A model generated the notes under the pieces. It made no database searches. It was given only the letters and a program-made list of their open reading frames with translations, and was not told the origin of the DNA. The translations under genes and the position numbers were made by a program. Positions 6,191 to 26,773 of a stretch of 30,126 nucleotides of DNA are shown piece by piece. The DNA comes from a virus. Numbering within the stretch: the stretch's first letter is position 1; each line of letters opens with the position of its first letter. The stretch covers positions 1-30,126 of the IMG/VR virus record IMGVR_UViG_3300047554_000378; one strand, given 5' to 3'.

Positions 6191-6665
6191 AGGCTACGTG
6201 CGTCGGCCAGTAGTAGTTGCACTTCTCACAGCACGGCTCGTTGTTGCGGTCTGCAACAGCGCGAACCATGTCTACATAGTAGATAGGGTCTTTGCGGTAC
6301 AGGTTTGCTCGGTGCGTAGTTACTACGCGACCCATGGTATCCATGTTCAGGAACCACTGCGGAAGTCCATCACCCCAACGGTCGATGTTATCTAACGTCA
6401 GCGCCTTGAGGTTTGCTACGTTCTTATCAGTCTTGATGCCACGCTTGTCTGCTTCACGAACACAGGTGAATACATACTCAAGCAGAGCCTTCTCGTGACC
6501 TCTCCACATTTTGACAGCAGGGTGATTACGCCATCCAGCGTGAGGGTCGTCATTCGATAGCACCTTGAGGATTTGGTAACCCTCGAGAATCTGCTTGTTG
6601 AGACGCTTGCTGTCCAGGGCTTTTGCGGACTCCTGGAAGTCCTTGAATGGTAGAAATGTTTGCAT
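6189..6665 (-). CDS. Pyrimidine-dimer DNA glycosylase-like protein (MSMEG_6728 / Pyr_excise family)
   Basis: The 158-residue product matches the pattern of the actinobacterial MSMEG_6728 group related to T4 endonuclease V: MQTFLPF followed by the signature SAKALDSKRLNKQ near residues 13-25, then GWRNHPAVKMWRGHEKALLEY. Members are thought to cut at UV-induced pyrimidine dimers and start base-excision repair. It ends in a cysteine pair (CCEKC) not typical of T4 DenV. It is the last gene of the long minus-strand region and has its own promoter, with the start codon six bases after the -10, so its mRNA is probably leaderless. Family assignment is firm; activity is inferred. Confidence 0.8.
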   Translation of the reverse strand: MQTFLPFKDFQESAKALDSKRLNKQILEGYQILKVLSNDDPHAGWRNHPAVKMWRGHEKALLEYVFTCVREADKRGIKTDKNVANLKALTLDNIDRWGDGLPQWFLNMDTMGRVVTTHRANLYRKDPIYYVDMVRAVADRNNEPCCEKCNYYWPTHVA

Positions 6666-12633: not shown

Positions 12634-13432
12634 GTGGTGCACGACTGACTAGGTCGCCACCACCGCCCCACTACCGAACTACCTCAGGGGAACTAGCACC
12701 ATTGCGAGCCTTTTCCGACTACTAACGGCTTTGGTATGCCGATTTCCAACCTTCGGGGGAACCACCTACACCACCCTCTTAACGTCGGTGGTCCACGCTA
12801 GAGCAGTCACGCTCAAGATATTAAGGCTCGCAGGAAACCCTGCCAAACGAGAAGAATCCATGGCCATGGTAATCTTCCGAGCCTTAGCGGACTGCGAGGA
12901 ATCGCACCTCGGCAACTCCATACGGAGTACCTCTAGCTACCTTATCCGCGGTGGTCAGGTAGCACAGTCCATCAGGTCGTATTCGCAATGCGGGAGACCA
13001 AACCCTTAACTAGCCGTTAGGTCTTGCGGTTACTCGGATTACTCTCTGCATAGCCGTAAACGGGTTTATTACATTTATCCTAGCACCTGCCGCAGCAAAG
13101 GGTGCTAAGACCAGCCGTTCCGTAGGCTGCCATCAATCTGCGGTCGATGGCTCACGAAGGGAACGTCTGTTTGCTGCCTCACCTGGACTCGAACCAGGAA
13201 CTTACGAGTTAACAGCTCGTCACTCTGCCAATTGAGTTATAAGGCAATGCACAGACTGCTCCCGATTGGGAACTCCCTATCCTAAGAGCAATCTGGCAAG
13301 GCGGGTCACCCTTGCGGGATTCCTGCATTTGGTACAGGGATTTGCGTACTGCGATAGTTACTAACACCTTCGGTTCTTTCGCGTCCCTGCTCTGTCTCGG
13401 CTGAGTTAGTTGTCGCTACACCGAGCACATTG
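12634..13432 (-). ncRNA. Large, highly structured non-coding RNA (GOLLD-like candidate) with nested tRNA-Asn
   Basis: About 800 bases without a believable gene carry many perfect helices on the minus strand. From the 5' side: ACTAAC/GTTAGT, CAGGGA/TCCCTG, GCAAGG/CCTTGC, GTCTGT (13256-13251) pairing with ACAGAC (13170-13165) around tRNA-Asn and extended by GGGA/TCCC, TAGCACC/GGTGCTA, ACTCC/GGAGT, and TGCGAGCCTT (12832-12823) pairing over 10 bp with AAGGCTCGCA (12712-12703). The first of these bases can instead pair with AAGGCTCG at 12885-12878. A final bulged hairpin (12663-12634) followed by a T4 run may be the 3' end. Size, a nested tRNA, phage context and closeness to tRNAs fit GOLLD RNA; ROOL or a new class is possible. 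It probably shares the tmRNA transcript. Exact ends are uncertain. Confidence 0.7.
13174..13246 (-). tRNA. tRNA-Asn (anticodon GTT), nested in the large structured RNA
   Basis: Acceptor TGCCTTA/TGAGGCA (one G-U), anticodon stem ACGAG/CTCGT with loop CTGTTAA (anticodon GTT), and T arm CCTGG TTCGAGT CCAGG are standard. The discriminator is G, as for Asn. CCA is not encoded. Its flanks, GTCTGT and ACAGAC, pair with each other, so the tRNA sits at the tip of a helix of the surrounding RNA. Confidence 0.92.
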
Positions 13433-13782
13433 TGGAGATGGGGGGAGTCGAACCCCCGTCCTGACAAAGTCTATTTGTTCTTCTACACGCTTAGGCAGTT
13501 TGCTTTGTGTTCCCGATGGTTGACCTGCCAGACATCGAGTCAGATTCAATTACGGCTTGAATCGTGGCCGTGGTGCAAGTTGTCCTATTTGTTTAAAGCC
13601 TGACTGCCCACTTAGGACTAGTGCTTTGTCAGGGGTTCTAGAAGCTTTGTCGGTTAAGACTAGGCAGCTAGAGCGAATGCAGAACGAGATTCAGCATTTA
13701 TTTTTTGTAGCGGTTTTACAAGACTCCGCTATCTTGGCGTGCTTCACCAAACTTCAGATGCCAGTCGAAACCAGGCATCCCC
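13433..13782 (-). ncRNA. ssrA: Transfer-messenger RNA (tmRNA)
   Basis: The 5' end GGGGATG pairs with CATCTCC at the 3' end, forming the tRNA-like acceptor. The 5' TGGTTTCGAC motif and the 3' T arm (GGGGG TTCGACT CCCCC) are typical of tmRNA. The tag frame, 13695-13660, reads AESRSAFALAA then TAG; the ALAA end is the usual proteolysis signal. Length, about 350 nt, is normal for one-piece tmRNA. CCA is not encoded. tmRNA frees stalled ribosomes and tags unfinished proteins. It is followed directly by the large structured RNA and preceded by a TATAAT promoter element. Confidence 0.93.
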
Positions 13783-24300: not shown

Positions 24301-25131
24301 GGAGCAGATTCAAATGACAGCACTGGTCACATTTTTATGGGCCGCTACGCAAATGCTAACCCAGTTGCCAACATCACACTAAACGCTACTACCACAAACG
24401 TAGCCACCAATCTTCGCGTAGGTAACGACCTGACTATGGTTGGAAGCGCCACCCTAAGAACTGGTGCTTCTACAGCTGGAGACGCTCCACTCTACTTTGC
24501 CTCAGGAACAAACCTGTCGGCTATTGAAGCTGGAGCCGTCGAGTATGACGGAAACGTGTTCTATGGAACCCCGAAGGTAACAAGCACTACTTATGGTAGA
24601 GGTTTGATTCCGACCACTATGGTCTACTCAAACAACACTTCGCCTACAACCACCACTTCAACAGGTGGTGCCACCATTACCCTGAATCCGCTCGGAACCG
24701 CGGTAACTCTTCCAGCTGGCTCGTTTGAAGTAGAGGGATTTGTAGTAGTTCAGGTGAGCAGCACGGTAAACCCAGCGTCTACCCTAAGATTTGGATTTAC
24801 TGGTACAGGCGTAGCTTCAATGCTTTTTGATGAGAAATACAACGCTAACCAGGCAACCTTAACTACTATTGCTGCTCCTACAAATGGTGCCAGAACCTCG
24901 GTAGGAACAGTAAGCGTAGTGAGTAGCCCGACTAGCGGATACTACACACGAGTTTGGTTTAAAGGAATTATCAGAACTTCTTCTACAGCCGCATTTAACC
25001 CTATCTTCACGGTAGTAAATGGTTCTACACCAGCAACAGCCACTCTGACAGCGCAGCCAGACGGATTTATGAAGGTAACCCCACTAAACGGAACTTACAC
25101 TGCAGCAGTTAACATTGGAGGCTGGGCTTAA
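21310..25131 (+). CDS. Large tail fibre / receptor-binding protein
   Basis: The 1273-residue protein starts with TTG after AGAGG. Its first 50 residues match the same pattern as the preceding fibre (FLT, then G-x-x-Y-N-T and NGTSW), suggesting a common attachment element. Near residue 490 is a brief collagen-like run (GPKGDTGSAGANG). A unit of about 115 residues beginning NGAST and running to LPATTGT occurs twice, at about 557-671 and 716-830, nearly identical, so it arose by duplication. The last 200 residues are a non-repetitive beta domain (from about 1085) likely to be the receptor-binding tip. Confidence 0.85.
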   Translation: MARKFLTPVGLPSGASNPATGSAGDLFYNTSDGFIYNHNGTSWSQIVGDGMPAGGTTGQLLSKINGTDYNTEWVDETSIATSTVKHLVKNDSGVTLSKGTVVYTKSANGTNILVDKAIATNDTYSSQVLGFLESDLAANETGYCVNNGLVTNINTDGATAGDPVWLSGTTAGGFVTGAGNKPVAPTHLVYLGVVTRANSNTGEIFVHISNGWELDELHNVLIDGTPADNEVLAYDSGSSLWKNQTAAEANLSVVGHTHSIANVTSLQDSLDAKANLAGASFTGNISTTGDANVAGKLNITASSGNEGGELFLAAPAANTSITTGVNIDIYQNKLRFWEAGGTNRGYYVDITGGASAVGTSLTGGSTGAMNYAQTEGTKQSAISSVGTTIVSVSITTNGYPVLVNVTGDVENNSAGGWVVLQLYRGSTAIGNPVHAESSAGSENVPYALSVIDAPSAGTYTYALKLNNAAGGTFNFGESDGPVITAIELSGPKGDTGSAGANGTSPNAFTTISTPSGTNPVADSTSDTLTFTAGTGISITGDATADSIAIETNGASANGASTLVLRDSTGNFSANVVTASTFSGSGASLTAIPAANVTGTLTSTVLGNSTAYVGTTAIALNRASANQGLTGISSVTFPGSTSGTIQLLANAAAGTGTVLTLPATTGTLALTSQIPTVNDATLTLAVSGVGLSGSQTFTANQSTGATFTVTSNANSANGASTIVARDASGNFSANTVTATTFSGSGASLTNVPGANVTGTLTSTVLGNSTVYIGTTAVALNRSTGNLGLTGISSVTLPGSTSGTIQLLANATAGTGTVVTLPATTGTVVTTGDSGTVTNTMLAGSIANAKLANTAVSLGAQTLTLGAAATTTISGMTSVSSSTLTSTVATGTAPFTVTSTTQVTNLKAEFAGTADLANAVAVGNVSGLGANVATFLATPSSANLLNVMTTETGTGNLVFSTNPSLDGITLNAGTSFIIEDADSVVGRVIGSGNLFYIQAGADSNDSTGHIFMGRYANANPVANITLNATTTNVATNLRVGNDLTMVGSATLRTGASTAGDAPLYFASGTNLSAIEAGAVEYDGNVFYGTPKVTSTTYGRGLIPTTMVYSNNTSPTTTTSTGGATITLNPLGTAVTLPAGSFEVEGFVVVQVSSTVNPASTLRFGFTGTGVASMLFDEKYNANQATLTTIAAPTNGARTSVGTVSVVSSPTSGYYTRVWFKGIIRTSSTAAFNPIFTVVNGSTPATATLTAQPDGFMKVTPLNGTYTAAVNIGGWA

Positions 25132-25298
25132 TGGATAGATTTCACTGGTTTTGCTATTGCCGCACTGAAGGCTGTTTAAATGCAGGAAATGCCAACTACA
25201 TAATTACTGAAGAAAACGTTGCACCAAACCCTGTGTGCGGCAACTGTTCAGTGGCAATCACCGAAATAGTTTCAGTAGAGGACCCTAACCCTCTTTAG
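25131..25298 (+). CDS. Tiny zinc-ribbon protein after the tail fibre
   Basis: The 55-residue product has CYCRTEGC (C8, C10, C15) and CGNC (C36, C39), a small metal-binding ribbon. Its ATG overlaps the tail-fibre stop (TAATG), supporting translation from the fibre mRNA. Its last 14 bases overlap the opposing gene at 25285. Function unknown. Confidence 0.6.
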   Translation: MDRFHWFCYCRTEGCLNAGNANYIITEENVAPNPVCGNCSVAITEIVSVEDPNPL

Positions 25299-25434
25299 GT
25301 CTCTGCCCTGGACGAGGCTTGTATTCGGGTCTAATAAAAACAACTCCATCGTGCTTCATTTCGCATATCCGAGCCAACGAATCCACTACAAAAAGTTCCT
25401 TGCAGACGCTGCATTGGTTATTCGGTTTGCTCAT
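25285..25434 (-). CDS. Small Cys/His protein
   Basis: Start at the ATG at 25434, supported by CAGGAGAACG. The 49-residue product has CSVC (residues 8-11) and a later C-x3-H (CEMKH), a likely zinc site, then a basic Pro/Arg-rich end. It converges on the preceding plus-strand gene with 14 bases of overlap. A GATAAT hexamer at 25460-25465 on the minus strand could be its -10. Confidence 0.55.
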   Translation of the reverse strand: MSKPNNQCSVCKELFVVDSLARICEMKHDGVVFIRPEYKPRPGQRPKEG

Positions 25435-25472
25435 CGTTCTCCTGTGAAGTTGTAACTTAATTATCTCACAGC

Positions 25473-25502
25473 TTGACATGAGCCAGATTTTTGTCCTAGA
25501 AT
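25473..25502 (+). promoter_or_regulatory. Consensus promoter TTGACA-18-TAGAAT
   Basis: TTGACA (25473-25478), an 18-base spacer and TAGAAT (25497-25502) make the strongest promoter by eye in the window. Predicted start is at about 25509, where the sequence reads ATG CAT TAA. Confidence 0.8.
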
Positions 25503-25508
25503 GTGGTT

Positions 25509-25570
25509 ATGCATTAAGTTGTTCCAGCGAGACGACATGCGACGAAAGCCACTCTTCGGAGTGGTTTTTT
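25509..25570 (+). ncRNA. Candidate small RNA of about 62 nt
   Basis: The strong promoter at 25473-25502 is followed within 60 bases by a strong terminator and no real gene, which predicts a short RNA. Its 5' end would be AUG CAU UAA, a two-codon frame at the very start; a 16-codon frame begins at 25538 but runs through the terminator. It may be a regulatory RNA, or a leader that controls readthrough into the gene at 25597. Confidence 0.55.
25549..25570 (+). terminator. Rho-independent terminator with UUCG loop
   Basis: CCACTC and GAGTGG pair around TTCG and are followed by six T's; outer bases GACGAAA and TTTCGTC can extend the stem. It would end the short RNA started at about 25509. Confidence 0.88.
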
Positions 25571-25584
25571 CGTCTCTACGGGTA

Positions 25585-25590
25585 TAGACT
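25585..25590 (+). promoter_or_regulatory. -10 element TAGACT for a leaderless start at 25597
   Basis: TAGACT, six bases (TTTAAT), then ATG. It follows the terminator directly, giving the downstream genes their own transcript start. -35 not evident. Confidence 0.5.
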
Positions 25591-25596
25591 TTTAAT

Positions 25597-25878
25597 ATGA
25601 GTGATGACACCAACAACAGAAAGCTGTATCGAGTCGACTGGAAGTACATCGACCTAGATAAAGGTGTAGATGAAGATTACGCCTACATCGGAGCAGATAG
25701 TCCAGTTGATGCAACTAACGGCATCCCTGGGACTGACTTTGTAGTTAGAGAAGCAACCAGAGAAGAGATGGAAGCCTACGTCGCTGGATATGAAGACGGT
25801 TACGACATTGCAATTATCAGCACCAGGATTGAAGACTTAGATGCTGGCCTAGAGCTAGAGATTGAAGACGAGGACTAA
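25597..25878 (+). CDS. Acidic hypothetical protein
   Basis: The 93-residue product is strongly acidic with an alpha/beta look: LYRVDWKYIDLDKGVDEDYAY, then REATREEMEAYVAGYEDGYD, ending EIEDED. The first stretch suggests a small one-domain protein. I know no family. It has no Shine-Dalgarno and is probably leaderless. Its stop is one base before the ATG of the kinase fusion gene. Confidence 0.6.
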   Translation: MSDDTNNRKLYRVDWKYIDLDKGVDEDYAYIGADSPVDATNGIPGTDFVVREATREEMEAYVAGYEDGYDIAIISTRIEDLDAGLELEIEDED

Positions 25879-25879
25879 T

Positions 25880-26773
25880 ATGAAGGTATACATCGCAGGT
25901 CCAATGAGCGGCTACGAAGACTGGAACTTTCCCGCTTTCTTTGAAGCCGAGCGACAGCTGCTTGAGCTAGGATACGAAGTAATCAATCCAGCACACAACG
26001 ACGGAGCAACTGTTCAAGAAGCTCTGGAATCAGCTGGCTCACCTGACCGACCAAACAACATGTGGTCTTGGTACATGCGTCGCGACCTACCGCACGTTAT
26101 GGAGGTGGACGCCCTCTGTGTCCTCCCAGGTTGGCAGAAGTCAAAGGGAGCAAAACTGGAAGTCCACGTTGCAACTGCCATCGGCATCCCGCTAATGGTT
26201 CTGAAAGACGGCAAACTTGTTCCACGTGTAACCTGCATCGGCATCTCTGGCTGGGCGAGAGCTGGCAAAGATACTATTGCTGACCACATGGTGGAGAACC
26301 ACGGTTATGTCAAGATGTCTCTAGCGTCACCAATGAAGGACGCTCTCTATGCCTTAGACCCTCGCATCACCGTTAATGAAGTTCAAAACACTTCTCTTCG
26401 AGTTGCAATTGATGTTTACGGCTGGGAGGGAATCAAAGAACGCAGCCCAGACATCAGAGGACTACTTCAGCGTTTTGGAACTGAAGTTGGTCGAGTCCAG
26501 TGGGATGAAAACTTCTGGGTAGACATGGCACTTAGCCGCATTCCAGACGGTAGCAAGGTTGTATTTGCTGACGTTCGATTCCCTAATGAGGCTAACGCCA
26601 TCAAGGAGCTAGGCGGAGAGATTTGGCGTGTAGAGCGTTTTGACTCAGGCCCAGCAAATAACCACATCTCTGAGCACGCACTTGACGACTACGCATTTGA
26701 CCACCTAATTCGTAACTACAACGGACTCGAGTCGCTCTACCAGACAGTTACCACAATTCTTACTGACTTATAA
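25880..26773 (+). CDS. DUF4406 domain fused to deoxynucleoside monophosphate kinase
   Basis: Start taken at the ATG at 25880, after GAGGACTAAT; 297 residues. Residues 1-110 match DUF4406, a nucleoside 2-deoxyribosyltransferase-like fold (KVYIAGPMSGYEDWNFPAF and LPGWQKSKGAKLEVHVA). From about 118 comes a P-loop kinase (GISGWARAGKDT, K130) with ADVRFPNEA further on, as in phage T4-like dNMP kinases, which phosphorylate dNMPs to dNDPs. The fusion may couple nucleotide salvage or base handling to phosphorylation. The stop codon overlaps the -10 hexamer of the recombinase gene. Confidence 0.8.
   Translation: MKVYIAGPMSGYEDWNFPAFFEAERQLLELGYEVINPAHNDGATVQEALESAGSPDRPNNMWSWYMRRDLPHVMEVDALCVLPGWQKSKGAKLEVHVATAIGIPLMVLKDGKLVPRVTCIGISGWARAGKDTIADHMVENHGYVKMSLASPMKDALYALDPRITVNEVQNTSLRVAIDVYGWEGIKERSPDIRGLLQRFGTEVGRVQWDENFWVDMALSRIPDGSKVVFADVRFPNEANAIKELGGEIWRVERFDSGPANNHISEHALDDYAFDHLIRNYNGLESLYQTVTTILTDL

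Follow-up and report, generated by a model that had tools for sequence, protein, structure and literature searches.

A candidate small-RNA gene shared by five lineages of freshwater actinobacteriophages

The window, by which we mean the whole stretch of DNA analysed here, is an IMG/VR virus record of 30,126 bases that encodes a WhiB regulator, tRNAs, a tmRNA and a ribonucleotide reductase that is closest, among named phages, to that of Actinomycetia phage DSL-LC01 (Dishui Lake; 76% identity). The phage is a freshwater actinobacteriophage, and the viruses of all five lineages discussed below are freshwater-type actinobacteriophages. Its tmRNA gene is complete (13432-13782, minus strand), specifies the tag AESRSAFALAA and lies near genes for tRNA-Asn, tRNA-Asp and tRNA-Thr. 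The locus of interest (Table 1) separates two small divergent genes. One encodes a zinc-ribbon-like protein without a match in Pfam or in 84,980 bacterial and archaeal genomes, although the gene is widespread in related phages (L031-L075). The other encodes a 93-aa protein for which we found no match in Pfam, in PHROG or among named phages; the DNA from 25001 to 26000 likewise matched no named phage. A single open reading frame at 25889-26773 fuses a DUF4406/nucleoside 2-deoxyribosyltransferase-like domain to a deoxynucleotide monophosphate kinase.

Table 1. Features of the predicted small-RNA locus and its neighbours (positions in the window)
Feature	Position	Strand	Basis or remark
Small zinc-ribbon-like protein (CxxC, CxxxxH), divergent neighbour	25285-25434	-	46 IMG/VR loci with relatives
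Promoter of the small RNA	25473-25502	+	-35 TTGACA 25473-25478, 18-nt spacer, -10 TAGAAT 25497-25502
Predicted small RNA	25509-25574	+	Promoter and terminator positions; CM R1 match 25511-25571, 26.1 bits
AUG CAU UAA frame	25509-25517	+	Sequence; judged incidental
Hairpin 1	25511-25540	+	Fold and paired changes; loop CCAGCGA
Intrinsic terminator hairpin, UUCG loop, six T's at 25565-25570	25541-25574	+	Fold; same place in five lineages
Predicted leaderless promoter of the 93-aa gene (TAGACT, 6 nt, ATG)	25585-25596	+	
93-aa acidic protein, downstream neighbour, outside the RNA	25597-25878	+	Relatives in IMG/VR

The promoter-like sequence matches the sigma-70-type consensus at 11 of 12 positions, which makes it the top site of its kind on both strands of the window and the only one to reach that score. 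About 60 nt downstream lies the terminator, which reads GACGAAAGCCACTC-UUCG-GAGUGG-UUUUUU-CGUC. Transcription is predicted to begin at 25509, since the leaderless genes of this phage (see below) imply a spacing of 6 nt between the -10 element and the first transcribed base, and the 3' end of the RNA is predicted within the U-tract or just beyond it. The segment 25509-25577 folds at -26.7 kcal/mol (z -3.56), a value equalled in 2 of 200 shuffles. A terminator scan of the window did not list the hairpin at 25541, though it is clear in the fold, probably because part of the U-tract pairs inside the stem. The ORF list holds no plus-strand frame of at least 50 aa between promoter and terminator, in agreement with the earlier note, according to which no gene fits there; on the opposite strand, only a 62-aa frame (25461-25649) overlaps the predicted RNA. 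GC skew gave no origin signal at this site. The strong promoter-terminator pair, 60 bases apart, from which the earlier note had started is thus confirmed by the consensus match, by the fold and by its rarity in shuffled sequence, where an 11/12 promoter followed within 150 nt by a terminator-like hairpin appeared in one of 60 dinucleotide shuffles of the window (mean 0.017). As a class, promoter-like sites show no enrichment in the window, a point in favour of chance, by which a promoter-like and a terminator-like sequence would lie together without a joint role. The rarity of the pair in shuffles and its conservation in five lineages make such a coincidence extremely unlikely.

The promoter, the short RNA and the terminator recur at the same site in five distinct IMG/VR lineages (the window and L002; L003 and L004; L005; L006; L007 and L008), which are the loci where the 93-aa and zinc-ribbon genes face each other. 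The order is the same in all five: TTGACA, a spacer of 17 or 18 nt, TAnnnT, 6-8 nt, a hairpin, the terminator hairpin and the downstream gene. Conservation of the promoter-terminator pair in related phages had been proposed as a check on the small-RNA reading, and loss of the terminator in close relatives named as evidence against it; the pair is kept in the five lineages, and all of them have a stable hairpin with a T-tract at the same place.

The predicted RNA consists of a bulged hairpin and, directly 3' of it, the terminator hairpin. In the relatives, the structure runs from GUAU/AUAC through a UAA bulge and UCCAG/CUGGA to a single nucleotide and the terminator, and the first base of the hairpin is the predicted +1 (GUAUUAAUCCAGUACUGCGAGCCUGGAAUAC in L003), whereas in the window hairpin 1 begins at +3 and combines the same UAA bulge with the stems GCAU/AUGC and GUUGUU/GACGAC. 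Between window and relatives, 6 of the 9 model pairs of hairpin 1 are changed on both sides with all cells still paired. In an alignment of the five distinct sequences, fitted to the model, 98% of cells are paired and 8 pairs are changed on both sides, most of these compensatory changes falling on one branch, that of the window; no shuffle reached such a count, and every slid register gave at most two pairs changed on both sides. When the 3' arm of the window hairpin was shuffled, the structure of the relatives formed in only 108 of 200,000 cases. A covariance model trained on three relatives only, with the window left out (CM R1), recovered L007 with a score of 48 bits and the window with one of 26 bits (an E-value of 0.011 in 368 kb of sequence), the best matches outside the training set in those 368 kb and above all unrelated sequence, while its reverse-strand matches mostly reflect the symmetric terminator stem. 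Taken by itself, hairpin 1 has no greater folding stability than shuffled sequence (z -0.3 to -1.2, including -0.8), and in L007 the lowest-energy fold departs from the model inside the hairpin. L003 and L006 differ at 2 of 31 sites in hairpin 1 and at 9 of 17 in the promoter spacer (Fisher p 5e-4), but compared with third codon positions in the 93-aa gene the hairpin is only marginally better conserved (p 0.054). Among unpaired positions, the UAA bulge and some dispersed bases of the loop (UNCNGMGA) are invariant.

The distribution of the unit follows its neighbourhood. It is absent where either the 93-aa or the zinc-ribbon gene has other neighbours: relatives of the 93-aa gene in L009 and L019-L024 have other upstream sequence without such an RNA, and loci lacking it have different genes in the slot beside the zinc-ribbon gene. 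Searches of whole records found one copy per record in the five lineages; CM R1, run against the closest phage with a name, DSL-LC01 (129 kb), and 23 related IMG/VR records, detected no copy outside these lineages and no second copy inside them. None of 19 other related records, DSL-LC01 among them, carries the RNA, and 11 of the 19 encode a full-length reductase 76-91% identical to that of the window. The absence of the unit beside other neighbours and from these 19 records indicates an accessory RNA gene that occupies one slot beside the zinc-ribbon gene; that the latter faces different neighbours in different lineages makes its upstream side look like a gene-swapping slot. A scan for the promoter plus GTATTAA returned 90 stretches, with the structure only in contigs already known, one for GCATTAA-type patterns fitted only the window's own lineage, and the RNA pattern had no match in the 84,980 bacterial and archaeal genomes.

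The 93-aa gene itself seems to be transcribed separately. In all five lineages its ATG is preceded, after 6 nt, by a conserved TAnnnT (TAGACT in the window; TAGGAT, TAGGAT, TAAGAT and TAGCAT in the relatives). This is the layout of the leaderless promoters mapped in Mycobacterium tuberculosis, where TANNNT accompanies more than 3,100 start sites and roughly one gene in four is leaderless (PMC3898074). Of 42 gene starts in the window, 8 show TAnnnT at a distance of exactly 6 nt (an approximate count, the genes having been picked by hand from the ORF table), compared with 2% of all ATGs (p 2e-6); examples are the starts at 113, 3835 and 25597 on the plus strand and at 6665, 8805 and 15278 on the minus strand. 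Such frequency suggests widespread leaderless transcription in this phage. The minus strand repeats the arrangement of 25541-25597 at 6744-6665 and at 15328-15278: a strong terminator, UUCG- or GC-rich, closes the preceding gene, and a leaderless promoter with its gene comes immediately after. By the same layout, the terminator at 25541 most likely ends a separate transcript. Terminators placed right before leaderless promoters could also help in annotating these phages.

These observations bear on the start-stop frame AUG CAU UAA, on which, according to the earlier note, held ribosomes might decide readthrough to 25597. The frame does stand at the predicted 5' end in the window, but it is confined to that lineage: the four relatives begin with GUAUUAAU at +1 and have no start codon there, and the window has one because two extra bases (AU) precede GCAUUAA. 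From this comparison the frame is best seen as incidental, although in an actinobacterial host a 5'-terminal AUG could bind ribosomes in the window's lineage alone. The ribosome-controlled switch finds no support, since the AUG is not conserved and the 93-aa gene is preceded by a predicted leaderless promoter of its own. More generally, the unit might be an attenuator or leader of the 25597 operon, in which transcripts from 25509 usually stop and a signal sensed by hairpin 1 permits readthrough. Its terminator does lie some 25 nt ahead of the next gene, which has the same orientation, and all five lineages keep the two together, but there is no conserved leader frame, no conserved Shine-Dalgarno sequence for a read-through mRNA and, by inspection, no conserved antiterminator partner within hairpin 1 for the invariant GCCA arm, and relatives of the 93-aa gene at other loci do without the unit. 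The predicted leaderless -10 element conserved between the terminator and the 93-aa gene weakens the attenuator reading further, and we consider it unlikely.

On the other side, a conserved element upstream of the zinc-ribbon gene (ATTATCTCAC) stops 2-3 nt short of TTGACA in all five lineages, and this gene lies outside the predicted transcript. So close an arrangement would suit a model in which transcription matters and the RNA does not, the overlapping promoter repressing the zinc-ribbon gene while the terminator shields the next one. We hold this to be very unlikely, as it leaves unexplained a hairpin that is kept by paired changes and has diverged less than the promoter spacer. A complementarity noticed by eye between AAGUUGU in the window RNA and ACAACUU in the leader of the zinc-ribbon gene was dropped, the RNAs of the relatives lacking it.

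We therefore favour the small-RNA reading, supported by a unit conserved in five lineages, compensatory stem changes and invariant unpaired bases. The promoter, the terminator, their conserved position, the covarying hairpin and the separate promoter of the next gene point to 25473-25574 as a probable independent small-RNA gene of a freshwater actinobacteriophage, a reading to which we assign a probability of about 0.72. Host RNA polymerase carrying the housekeeping sigma factor would start near 25509 and stop at the U-tract near 25570, releasing an RNA of 62-65 nt composed almost wholly of two adjacent hairpins, the 5' one presenting the UAA bulge and the UNCNGMGA loop and the second being the terminator. 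With both ends buried in stems, this RNA should be stable. It would most likely act in trans, through the bulge and the loop. Since the stems vary freely around a fixed bulge and a few dispersed fixed loop bases, and no conserved unpaired run reaches 6 bases, we lean slightly towards a protein, or a contact that depends on the shape of the loop, as the means of recognition, over classical seed pairing with a single mRNA; pairing with a target outside the DNA analysed here is almost equally likely.

Base pairing would make the RNA an antisense or trans-acting regulator that contacts a particular mRNA through its loop, as OOP or sar RNAs do. The loop is exposed, and pairing with mRNA, the largest class of prokaryotic small-RNA action, is the mode of several phage small RNAs (review PMC12197685). 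Yet the RNA lacks a conserved unpaired seed of at least 6 bases, and no gene known to be conserved lies opposite it. Nor did it pair significantly with gene starts in the window, a small part of the phage genome: among 38 of them no target stood out, and the result was equalled by 151 of 200 shuffled RNAs. We regard this mode as possible rather than probable; it is a sub-case of the independent small RNA, so that the two probabilities overlap. A more tentative proposal, and a doubtful one, is that the locus encodes a minimal RNA family serving as a protein-binding decoy in actinobacteria, a bulged hairpin joined to a terminator with scarcely any free single strand, which would capture a host or phage protein such as a transcription or translation factor or a nuclease.

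In Rfam 15, no family reached its gathering cut-off at this site in the window, L003 or L007, and RNAI, the best match below threshold, scored 21 bits where 47 are required. Judged by sequence, the putative RNA is a new family of phage small RNA, with five lineages so far. The OOP RNA of phage lambda is likewise short and made from its own promoter to an intrinsic terminator (both predicted here) within a compact regulatory region; it is antisense to cII (its role is covered in PMC12197685), whereas the RNA described here has no gene known to be conserved opposite it and has a different conserved 5' hairpin. Attenuators with leader peptides, like the predicted RNA, yield a short transcript that terminates shortly before a gene. 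Here, however, no leader frame and no antiterminator is conserved, and the next gene has its own predicted promoter. The put RNAs of phage HK022, which make polymerase ignore terminators, also form hairpins near the 5' end of a phage transcript, whereas here a terminator directly follows the hairpin. Actinobacteria are a major group of freshwater bacteria and, to our knowledge, small RNAs of the phages infecting them have been little described; an RNA of 62 nt whose ends are predicted, whose fold can be tested and which has compensatory variants in nature would offer a way into how these phages use RNA. Phage small RNAs as a kind are already known (PMC12197685), and the trans-encoded examples from phages and prophages considered from that review resemble the present one in having an autonomous promoter and terminator, no protein product, a structured RNA and a phage origin. 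Those examples come from proteobacterial phages, some being Hfq-dependent, and the review mentions neither actinobacteria nor mycobacteriophages.

Elsewhere in the window, on the minus strand, TTGACA-17-TAGACT lies inside a 932-aa gene, and a terminator-like hairpin follows at 440-414, some 200 nt away; the stretch 671-414 may possibly specify an antisense RNA against the 5' end of that gene.
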